A program made the translations under genes and the position numbers. From the NCBI GenBank assembly GCA_024102795.1, contig JAGFJK010000453.1, positions 1 to 64,000 on the forward strand: a stretch of 64,000 nucleotides of DNA, written 5' to 3'. The DNA comes from Pirellulaceae bacterium. Lineage in GTDB: Bacteria > Planctomycetota > Planctomycetia > Pirellulales > Pirellulaceae. The notes under the pieces are model-generated. The model was not told where the DNA came from. It did no database searches and saw only the letters and a list, made by a program, of their open reading frames with translations. The stretch's first letter is position 1; each line of letters opens with the position of its first letter. Of the stretch, positions 58,520 through 61,971 are shown in pieces.

Positions 58520-59020
58520 TCAGGCGTCGCGCCGGCGAAGCACCGGGAAATTGTGGCGCTCCCCGCGACCCTGCAGTGGATAGTCCTTGCGCAACGGATG
58601 CGCCGTGAATTCTTCCGGCAACAGAATCCGCCGCGGGTCCGGATGGCCCTCGAAGCGAATTCCAAACATGTCCCACACCTCGCGCTCCAGCCAGTTCGCG
58701 GCCTCCCACAAGCCGGTTGCCGAGGGCACCACCAGGTCGGGCTCGTTCAGCGGCACCCGCAGCACCAACCGCTCGTTGCTGGCCAGCGATGCGAGCTGGT
58801 ACACGAGTCCAAAACGGTCGCGAGCGCCGCGATAGTTCAGGTAGTCGACACAGGTGATGTCCGCCAGGAAGTCAAAGCCGCACTCGTCCCGCAACAGCCG
58901 CAAGGCGTCCAGCAAACGGCCGGCCGGCACCACGACGCGCGTCCGCCCGCGAAACTCGCTGAACTCCAGGCCCTCGATGCGGGCCCGCAACACCTCGCTC
59001 ACCGCTTCACGAATCGGCAC
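58520..59020 (-). CDS. nuoC: NADH-quinone oxidoreductase subunit C
   Basis: 30-kDa-type hydrophilic subunit of complex I. 166 residues from GTG 59020 with GGGAG six bases upstream. The signature near the C-terminus is [48 protein letters not shown], and [12 protein letters not shown] is conserved earlier. nuoD starts 101 bp downstream. The upstream 198-bp gap to nuoB contains three tandem hairpins. Confidence 0.95.
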
Positions 59021-59106
59021 GCCGCGCTCCCTGCTGATCGTCGTTCATCACCAGCCCGCCTCTCCGACTCGGCCCTCAGTCGCTGATCGATACTGGGCCG
59101 CCTGGC

Positions 59107-59190
59107 GAGCGATTGGGGACAATCGCTCCATACTCCTGAGCGATTGGGGACAATCGCTCCACATTCCTGAGCGATTGGGGACAATCGCTC
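59107..59190. repeat. three tandem perfect hairpins between nuoC and nuoB
   Basis: Units of 22 bp, with arms GAGCGATTG and CAATCGCTC around GGGA, start at 59107, 59138 and 59169, exactly 31 bp apart. The 9-bp linkers (CATACTCCT, CACATTCCT) are similar to each other. On the minus-strand transcript each would fold independently. No U-run follows. Confidence 0.93.
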
Positions 59191-59218
59191 CACACTGCCT
59201 GGCCCGGCCCGCGGTCGC

Positions 59219-59773
59219 TCACCGATACTGGGGTGTCTGGCCGAGAATCGGCAGCTCCAACAACGCCCGCTTGGGTTGCTGGCGCTGGCTGAGCTCGAAT
59301 TCCGCTCCCGTCAACGTCCCCTCACGCTGGATCTTGTCCTGCAGGTCGATGATCGCCTGAATCAACTGTTCGGGGCGCGGCGGGCAACCCGGCACGTACA
59401 TGTCGACCGGGATGAAACGGTCGATGCCCTGCACCACGCAATAGGTGTCGAACACACCGCCAGTCGACGCACACGCGCCCATCGAAATGCACCACTTCGG
59501 CTCGTGCATCTGTTGCCAGATCCGCTGCAACACGGGCAGCATCTTCATCACCACCCGCCCGGCCACGATCATCAGATCGCATTGCCGGGGGCTGAAACGA
59601 AACACCTCGGCGCCGAACCGAGCCAGGTCGTGGCGGCTGGCACCGGTCGCCATCAACTCAATGCCGCAACAGGCCGTGGCGAACGGCATCGGCCAAAGGC
59701 TGTTCTTGCGGCACCAACTGGCCAGCTCGTCCAACTTGCTGACGACGACGTTCTCCGGCAGCTCTATCGCCAT
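59219..59773 (-). CDS. nuoB: NADH-quinone oxidoreductase subunit B
   Basis: Carries the terminal cluster N2 next to the quinone site. 184 residues. N2 ligands are visible as the adjacent Cys pair in [13 protein letters not shown], the Cys in [18 protein letters not shown] and the Cys in [50 protein letters not shown] is typical. ATG 59773 overlaps the nuoA stop by 10 bp. The C-terminal 25 residues ([23 protein letters not shown]) vary between species. Confidence 0.97.
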
Positions 59774-60171
59774 CGAAACACCCCCTTGCGCCAGGCGTAA
59801 ACGAACCCCATCGCCAGCAGGGCCACGAAGAACAACACTTCGGCGAACACCAGACCCCCGCTGAAGCCACCCCCCTGCCCCACCTGTTCGGCGATCCGGG
59901 GCAGGCCCTGCGGATCCTTGTTGGCAACCGCCCAGGGATAGAGGAATAACAGCTCGACATCGAACACCAGGAACACGATCGCCACCAGGTGGAACCGCAC
60001 GTCGAAGCGCCGCCGAGCGTCGTGGATCGGGTCCATGCCGCTCTCGTACGGCATCTGCTTGACGCGGCCGAACCGCCGGGGCCCCAGCAGGCTGCCGAGG
60101 GCCAGCATGCCGACCGCCAGCGCCAGCGAAGCCGCCGCCAGGATCAGGATCGGAATCAGGCCTGGTTCCAT
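59764..60171 (-). CDS. nuoA: NADH-quinone oxidoreductase subunit A
   Basis: Three-span membrane subunit of complex I, first gene of the locus. 135 residues from ATG 60171. The conserved acidic loop is [41 protein letters not shown], holding the Glu and Asp near the quinone channel. A Gly-rich link and a third span follow. Upstream lies an AT-rich promoter region with a 22-bp palindrome (60209-60230). The ribosome-binding site is weak. Confidence 0.96.
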
Positions 60172-60208: not shown

Positions 60209-60230
60209 CTTTGTGAATAATATCACAAAG
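60209..60230 (-). promoter_or_regulatory. perfect inverted repeat at the nuo promoter: Rex- or CRP-type operator
   Basis: Arms CTTTGTGA and TCACAAAG flank ATAATA. The inner 18 bases, TTGTGAATAATATCACAA, match the Rex consensus TTGTGAA-N4-TTCACAA with one mismatch, and also TGTGA-N6-TCACA, the CRP-type pair, with none. On the minus strand the centre is TATTAT, a possible -10 box, which would place a bound protein on the promoter. It is 38-59 bp upstream of the nuoA ATG. Confidence 0.75.
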
Positions 60231-60425
60231 CCAGTCCAAAAGAAAACCCGACGCGATCGTCGAGTGGGTCGTGGGTATGCTAGCGGCCCCCCGCCGGCCG
60301 GTCAACCGGTGGCGGAAACGGGGCCTGGTTCGAAATAATTGGCCCCAGCCCCGCCGCGGGCCAGCCCAAGTGGTATCCTGGGCCGCGGCTGACTTGAGTT
60401 TCCTCCAGCGAAGGACTTACCCTCC

Positions 60426-61637
60426 ATGGCACCGACCGTGATCGATACCCTCTGCGACCTGGTGCGGATTCCGAGCGTCAATCCGATGGGGCGCGATGTG
60501 CAGGGACCGGAGTACCTGGAAACCCGCATGACCGAGTACTTGCGGCGTTTCTTCGAGCAGTTGGGGGTGCCGTACGAAATCCAGGAGGTCGAGCCGGGCC
60601 GGACGAACATCCTGGCGCGACTGGACGCTGAGCGGTCGTCCGGGCAAACGCCTGGCCAGCCGGGGGAAAAAGTGCTGGTCTTCGAAGCTCACCAGGACAC
60701 GGTGCCAGTCGATGGCATGACGATTCCCCCCTGGGAGGCGGCGGTCCGCGACGGGCGGGTCTGGGGCCGCGGCGCGTGTGACATCAAAGGCGGCATGGCC
60801 TGCATGCTGACCGCCTTCGCCCGGCTGGCCGCCGAACGGCCGCCGCACCGCCCCACGCTGCTCATGGCCTGCTCGGTGAACGAAGAGCACGGCTTCACCG
60901 GAGCCCAGCGGATGGCTCAGCACTTCCGCGACGGAACCTGCTCGCTGCTGCCGCGCCTGCCCGACGCCGTGATCGTGGCCGAACCGACGCTGCTGAACGT
61001 CGTCGTCACGCACAAGGGCGTGGTCCGCTGGTACAGCCACACGCGGGGGCGAGCGGCTCACAGCAGCCGGCCCGAACAGGGCGAAAACGCCATCTATCGC
61101 ATGGGCCGGGCGCTGCAAGTTCTGGAAACCTACGCCCAGCGGCACGTGCCCCGGTTGGGACACCATCCGCTGCTCGGCACGCCCACCTTGAGCGTGGGGC
61201 GGATTGCCGGCGGCATCAGCGTCAACACGGTGCCCGACCATTGCAGCATCGAAATCGACCGCCGGTTGCTGCCCGGCGACGACCCGGAGGAAGCGTTCGC
61301 GGGCGTCGCGAGGTACCTGACCGAACAGCTATCCGAAGTCGCGGTCGAGCACGAGCGGCCGTACCTGGCCAGCACGGGCCTGCGCGACGACGTGAACCGC
61401 GGATTGGCCGAACATGTCGCTCAGATCACTCGTAAACACGGCGGACCGGGCGAACTGATCGGAGTCCCCTACGGCACCGACGCACCAGCCTTCTCCCGTT
61501 GGTCCGTGCCCACCATCGTCTTCGGCCCCGGCTCCATCGAGCAGGCTCATACGGCCGACGAGTGGATCGAGACCAGCCAGTTGGAGCTGGCCACCCGCAT
61601 CCTCGTGCAAATCGGCTCGACACCCCTTCCGGCGTGA
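60426..61637 (+). CDS. M20-family metallopeptidase (ArgE/DapE-like)
   Basis: Zinc-dependent aminoacylase/deacetylase or peptidase family, cytoplasmic, 403 residues from ATG 60426. Metal-site motifs: VFEAHQDTVPVDG (first His-x-Asp), WGRGACDIKGGMACML (bridging Asp), CSVNEEHGFTGAQRM (catalytic and ligand Glu pair), VAEPTLL and, at the end, FGPGSIEQAHTADEWIE (last His). A dimerisation domain fills about 185-300 (HKGVVRWYSHTRGRAAHSSRPEQGENAIYRM). The substrate could be acetylornithine, succinyl-diaminopimelate or a dipeptide; neighbours give no hint. It is divergent from nuoA. Confidence 0.9.
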   Translation: MAPTVIDTLCDLVRIPSVNPMGRDVQGPEYLETRMTEYLRRFFEQLGVPYEIQEVEPGRTNILARLDAERSSGQTPGQPGEKVLVFEAHQDTVPVDGMTIPPWEAAVRDGRVWGRGACDIKGGMACMLTAFARLAAERPPHRPTLLMACSVNEEHGFTGAQRMAQHFRDGTCSLLPRLPDAVIVAEPTLLNVVVTHKGVVRWYSHTRGRAAHSSRPEQGENAIYRMGRALQVLETYAQRHVPRLGHHPLLGTPTLSVGRIAGGISVNTVPDHCSIEIDRRLLPGDDPEEAFAGVARYLTEQLSEVAVEHERPYLASTGLRDDVNRGLAEHVAQITRKHGGPGELIGVPYGTDAPAFSRWSVPTIVFGPGSIEQAHTADEWIETSQLELATRILVQIGSTPLPA

Positions 61638-61638
61638 A

Positions 61639-61971
61639 TCAAAACACGTCCAGGATGAAGTGGTGGCCCGAGTGGTAGCGGCGGCCGAACGGGTACGAGT
61701 TGTGCCATTTCTTGTTGTAGACCGGTACCCGCATTTCCGGCGGATAGCGGTAGTACAGGCTCTCGCTGCTGCGATAGTACTCGTTGCCCCAGAAGTTCTG
61801 CGGGTAGAACACGTACGGGTAGTGGTAGAACCGCTCCCAATCGTGCGGCCCGTAGGCGCCTCCCCACACCCGGCCGAACGCCCGTTCCTGGCTCTGGGCC
61901 TGGGCGACCGAGTGGCTGCAAACGCTTAAAACCAACGTGCATAGCACGATCAAGAGCATGCGGCGAATCAT
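61639..61971 (-). CDS. small secreted Tyr/Trp-rich protein, unknown function
   Basis: 110 residues from ATG 61971 with GGGGGG upstream. The signal peptide is MIRRMLLIVLCTLVLSVCSHSVAQAQ. The mature 85 residues are rich in Tyr, Trp, Phe and His (RVWGGAYGPHDWERFYHYPYVFYPQNFWGNEYYRSSESLYYRYPPEMRVPVYNKKWHNSYPFGRRYHSGHHFILDVF). I recall similar small exported proteins from several planctomycetes, sometimes with an unsupported 'calmodulin-binding' label; no function is known to me. The stop is adjacent to the M20 stop (convergent, 1-bp gap). Confidence 0.75.
   Translation of the reverse strand: MIRRMLLIVLCTLVLSVCSHSVAQAQSQERAFGRVWGGAYGPHDWERFYHYPYVFYPQNFWGNEYYRSSESLYYRYPPEMRVPVYNKKWHNSYPFGRRYHSGHHFILDVF

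Follow-up and report, generated by a model that had tools for sequence, protein, structure and literature searches.

Which regulator recognizes the palindrome that stands ahead of nuoA in a Pirellulaceae bacterium, and how could it act from within the leader of the nuo cluster? In the window, i.e., the whole stretch of 64,000 nucleotides analyzed here, the Rex consensus TTGTGAANNNNTTCACAA finds a single match at up to 3 mismatches, while shuffles predict 0.01. This site (positions 60209-60230) reads CTTTGTGATATTATTCACAAAG on the nuoA strand and is built as CTTTGTGA-ATAATA-TCACAAAG, two 8-bp arms being perfectly paired around a 6-bp center; a gap of 37 bases separates it from the ATG of nuoA (60171, minus strand). 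A preliminary description of this DNA had reported a perfect palindrome, which stands for the 8-bp arms and fails for the central ATAATA, as the latter is not self-complementary: the site is a perfect inverted repeat with an asymmetric center. Its sequence, coordinates and distance to nuoA were confirmed by direct reading, as were the single mismatch from TTGTGAANNNNTTCACAA and, in the letters of the site, the exact TGTGA-N6-TCACA form that had been claimed. The features of the locus are collected in Table 1.

Table 1. Annotated features around the nuoA leader (positions in the window)
Feature	Coordinates	Strand	Remarks
M20-family peptidase, divergent	60426..61637	+	beside nuoA
Promoter P1, TTGACC-N17-TAGCAT	60277..60305	-	sequence scan; TTGACC-N16/18-TAnnnT conserved in relatives
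Terminator-like hairpin, ACTCGACG-ATCG-CGTCGGGT	60246..60265	-	8 pairs, about -10 kcal/mol; covarying stems
T-tract after stem, TTTCTTTT	60238..60245	-	ends 9 nt ahead of operator core
Predicted Rex operator	60209..60230	-	core 60211-60228 = TTGTGATATTATTCACAA on nuoA strand
nuoA	59764..60171	-	PF00507; first gene of nuo cluster
nuoB	59219..59773	-	PF01058; next gene, further nuo genes downstream

Rex as the predicted regulator

In the genome, which measures 8.56 Mb and is 97.6% complete, a single gene (G000:C189:5671-6339) codes for Rex, a repressor that senses NAD(H). The protein contains both the Put_DNA-bind_N winged helix (PF06971) and the Rossmann CoA_binding domain (PF02629), and its closest solved structure is a Rex (E 2e-49), with similarity extending over nearly the whole length. 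The search for regulator genes, which the preliminary description had advised, thus retrieved rex and failed to retrieve a CRP/FNR-type protein. The same description had also regarded the palindrome as a CRP-type site, on the grounds that TGTGA-N6-TCACA is matched exactly. Binding by a CRP/FNR-family protein is nevertheless very improbable: no protein combining PF00027 with a CRP-type HTH was found in the 97.6% complete genome, in which the cNMP proteins have other partner domains or none and the HTH matches, as read from their sequences, are MarR-like and DtxR-like proteins. In addition, the bases conserved in relatives are those of Rex, and the presence of the site tracks rex. In the absence of such a gene, the CRP/FNR identity was rejected. 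As for a chance origin of the palindrome, its short length is the sole point in favor and the probability is negligible, given the 0.01 matches expected in the window and a position kept across three orders.

Conservation of the site was followed in the relatives named by a NuoA search, which belong to Pirellulales, Gemmataceae and Isosphaeraceae. In Pirellulales, the operator (at most 2 mismatches) is found upstream of nearly all nuoA genes, often at about 40 bp from the start, and an upstream operator likewise precedes nuoA in Gemmataceae and Isosphaeraceae. Of 60 relatives, 45 carry TTGTGANNNNNTTCACAA exactly, a pattern that outnumbers its reversed control many times over; the genome under study has it only at 60209-60230 and at C52:3136. 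Across the class Planctomycetia, the nuoA operator was found in 61/64 Rex-positive genomes versus 1/28 Rex-negative ones (Fisher 8e-19), a statistic which overstates independence since the sampled genomes are kin. A comparable distribution was obtained for Gemmataceae alone (24/25 versus 0/7) and for assemblies of 10 contigs or fewer (17/17 versus 0/6). The operator has been lost in several families, as exemplified by the one-contig genome G052, which has neither rex nor the site. The exceptions are four fragmented MAGs (G015, G038, G058 and G046) which bear the operator and have no detected rex. When the bare pattern was counted over the whole phylum, its association with rex was only moderate (22/46 versus 18/102), as many Rex genomes outside the class are devoid of the exact pattern; the test anchored at nuoA gives a much clearer result. 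Near rex itself, no Rex site was found in the genome under study, where only about 130 bp of contig precede rex, or in 8 relatives.

Further copies of the motif at respiratory genes, another check that had been suggested, do exist. The nqrA gene bears the operator in 24 of 27 cases, mostly in genomes without nuo, in most of which nqrA is present. A conserved site also stands before genes for a Rieske protein (11 loci, among them C170:16775 in the genome under study) and for a CBS-domain protein (6 loci, among them C94:19434). In this genome, where regulon sites were read from search matches and retrieved stretches, Rex-like sites also precede adk (C52:3136, L022) and fbp (C265:4018, L026). Collectively, the presence of rex, the conservation of the nuoA operator, its co-occurrence with rex in the class, and the same operator at nqrA and at the Rieske gene strongly support the Rex-type site initially proposed, and conservation upstream of nuoA, on which that proposal had been made to depend, speaks for it as well. 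Judged from sequence, the palindrome is almost certainly a Rex operator.

Several side observations were made on these loci. In genomes G000-G059, complex I and Na+-NQR are nearly mutually exclusive (both occur in G004 and G040), and both have a Rex operator. Relatives of the M20 peptidase and of a small secreted ORF (61639-61971) adjoin nqrA in L156, L160 and L162, so that nuo may here occupy the spot which nqr holds in relatives. A weak Rex-like site (3 mismatches) precedes a nuoH at C130 (L028 4909) in the genome under study. Paired Rex-like sites lie close together at two loci, upstream of nqrA in G020 (L227) and of the CBS gene in G015 (L147). In G021, a perfect Rex-like site, TTGTGAAACTTTTCACAA, occurs four times (L128, L129, L130 and L131) in similar repeated contexts that are not promoter-like. 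Finally, the stretch between nuoC and nuoB (58999-59193) has repetitive-looking translations (IVPNRSGVWSDCPQS etc.) and is possibly an intergenic tandem repeat.

Promoter, hairpin and operator in nuoA leaders

In the leader under study, the conserved, sigma-70-like promoter P1 lies about 50 bp upstream of the operator, with the hairpin and T-tract in between, and transcription would start near 60270. The end of the hairpin stem is 17 nt ahead of the operator. This hairpin has the sequence attributes of an intrinsic terminator, that is, a GC-rich stem of at least 5 pairs with a T-rich tract directly after. An Rfam search of the leader returned no family matches, and a known riboswitch or leader RNA was rejected on this basis.

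The order promoter, hairpin, T-tract and operator recurs in the nuoA leaders of relatives. In a first set of 52 leaders, 34 have a strong terminator-like hairpin with a loop of at most 10 nt (36 if loops up to 16 nt are allowed), while dinucleotide shuffles average 0.8. All 34 standard-spacing hairpins differ in sequence, and several standard pair types are seen at every position of the stem, indicative of compensation; the mean hairpin score, 15.6 for the native stems, was 10.5 after the 5' arms had been exchanged between loci. The combined set comprises 100 distinct nuoA leaders with an operator. Of these, 70 have a hairpin within 130 nt, the other 30 having none by the scoring used, and 89 have a T-rich stretch at the module position. 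The stem ends 14-19 nt ahead of the operator in 68 of these 70 hairpins, and 16-17 nt ahead in 51.

The hairpin-operator spacing has a standard deviation of 0.8 nt when taken over hairpins at 13-19 nt (only one lay outside in the search of the whole 130 nt), as compared with 9 nt for promoter to hairpin and 30 nt for operator to nuoA start. In Isosphaeraceae, a recurrent TTGACG-N-TACAAT lies more than 100 nt further upstream and the hairpin-operator spacing is unchanged. Of 30 nuoA leaders without an operator, only 5 have a hairpin within 250 nt, and several operator-less nuoA genes (L179, L190, L192 and L194) keep a TTGACC promoter directly in front. As the module faces nuoA in relatives, the divergent M20 peptidase is thought to be outside operator control.

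A scan of 71 other Rex-site loci in both directions found the module oriented towards the gene at 5 nqrA loci and nowhere else; a single additional match, located at a Rieske locus, is antisense. When the scan of nqrA leaders was anchored at the gene start, a strong hairpin was seen in 6 of 24, at a spacing of 15-18 nt. None of the 11 Rieske loci and none of the 6 CBS loci carries the module before the gene. Where a promoter is clear, the Rieske operators lie about 9-14 bp after a TTGACA-N17-TACAAC-type sequence, which is the classic occlusion layout.

A putative repressor-gated terminator and its alternatives

In the mechanism that we infer, Rex of this lineage would bind the operator and respond to NADH. 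Transcription would begin at P1, yield a short hairpin and U-tract, and then reach the operator. With NADH low, bound Rex would block the polymerase on the T-tract and the hairpin would help to release it; transcription would in this state yield nothing beyond a leader RNA some 35 nt long. With NADH high, Rex would leave and the polymerase would read through the weak terminator into nuoA. Rising NADH removing the Rex block, complex I would be made when NADH needs oxidizing. A hairpin-operator spacing fixed regardless of the distance to the promoter is what is expected if the polymerase touches both elements.

Bacterial terminators usually release an RNA whose 3' end is about 8 nt beyond the stem. 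Here the canonical release point falls about 9 nt ahead of the operator, and a polymerase held by a roadblock would be expected closer to 15. Since this fit between release point and roadblock is plausible and inexact, our confidence in the mechanism is about evenly balanced. Related observations exist: RNA polymerase I, on reaching a T-rich stretch about 15 bp short of its roadblock protein, pauses, and an RNA hairpin lying upstream then releases it (PMC12366685); LacI roadblocks leak near the promoter (PMC4132739), and roadblock-stalled polymerase is otherwise removed by Mfd (PMC10310618).

An alternative is that a promoter overlaps the operator, with TGn-TAnnnT inside it, that Rex occludes the polymerase there, and that the hairpin is a terminator insulating this promoter from upstream transcription. 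A8 and T12 are strongly conserved on the nuoA strand, and the center of the operator under study, TGATATTAT, reads as an extended -10. Moreover, the Rieske Rex operators directly follow their TTGACA-N17-TACAAC promoter, and the Streptomyces Rex site at nuoA1 is located between -35 and -10 (PMC5355995). The asymmetric A8/T12 had raised the possibility that the operator is a -10 box, and the preliminary description had tentatively assigned this role to the central TATTAT. As a general feature, this was discarded: no more than 12 of 52 leaders have T at position 7, the center is AACCCT or AATCCT in other families, hence not -10-like, and a conserved TTGACC-N17-TAnnnT lies upstream. This upstream promoter reads into the hairpin and is retained where operator and hairpin have been lost, and insulation alone does not account for a hairpin-operator spacing fixed to about 1 nt. 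Occlusion from an overlapping promoter is thus unlikely at nuoA.

Alternatively, the hairpin could be an attenuator responding to another signal, with Rex acting as a separate roadblock alongside. Hairpin and operator are indeed distinct elements, and L035, L171 and L191 retain the hairpin beside a degenerate operator. Against this, the Rfam search gave no family match, the part of the leader preceding the hairpin is too short here for a leader peptide, the hairpin-operator spacing is fixed, and hairpins are rare where the operator is absent. We consider such an independent attenuator quite improbable.

A Rex operator in the nuo leader, acting by roadblock and hairpin-assisted release, is probably the best explanation for this locus. 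That Rex, placed 16-17 nt behind the hairpin and T-tract, makes an otherwise leaky terminator efficient, and does so widely in Planctomycetia, at nuo or partly at nqr, may equally well prove right or wrong.

Comparison with known systems

Control of nuo by Rex is already known. In Streptomyces avermitilis, Rex represses nuoA1-N1 from an operator located between -35 and -10, and NADH reduces its binding (PMC5355995). Repressor family, operator consensus and target operon are the same in both cases, whereas the operator lies within the promoter in Streptomyces and in the leader, behind the hairpin and T-tract, in the present locus. It is this predicted pairing of terminator and operator that is new. 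A literature search, outside of which most subscription journals fell, returned no description of Rex in planctomycetes and no repressor-gated leader terminator in bacteria. If the reading is true, this would be the first Rex regulon for planctomycetes. Similarly, operator sequence and Rex fold are shared with Staphylococcus aureus, whose Rex operator is TTGTGAAWWWWTTCACAA (PMC2883068), and with Rex regulons in general; these comprise mainly fermentation genes, unlike the nuo, nqr and Rieske targets found here.

Regarding the proposed mode of action, LacI, CcpA and CodY also stop elongation as DNA-bound repressors downstream of a promoter (PMC10310618, PMC4132739). In those roadblocks, it is mainly Mfd that clears the polymerase, while here a built-in hairpin would do so. 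The mechanism would thereby explain tight control by a leader repressor close to a promoter, a position in which roadblocks are otherwise leaky (PMC4132739). Intrinsic-terminator attenuators likewise possess a hairpin and U-tract in the 5' leader; however, it would here be a DNA-bound repressor that acts as the gate, a role played in attenuators by refolding of the RNA or by a ribosome.

The closest resemblance in working is to termination by RNA polymerase I at Reb1, Nsi1 or TTF1 (PMC12366685), in which a hairpin, a T-rich stretch and a roadblock site follow in the same order, Pol I pausing about 15 bp ahead of that site. That system is eukaryotic, operates at rRNA gene ends and has no metabolite switch, and the likeness is one of working, not of membership. 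If true, the nuoA leader would represent a bacterial case of the roadblock-plus-hairpin termination recently shown for eukaryotic Pol I.
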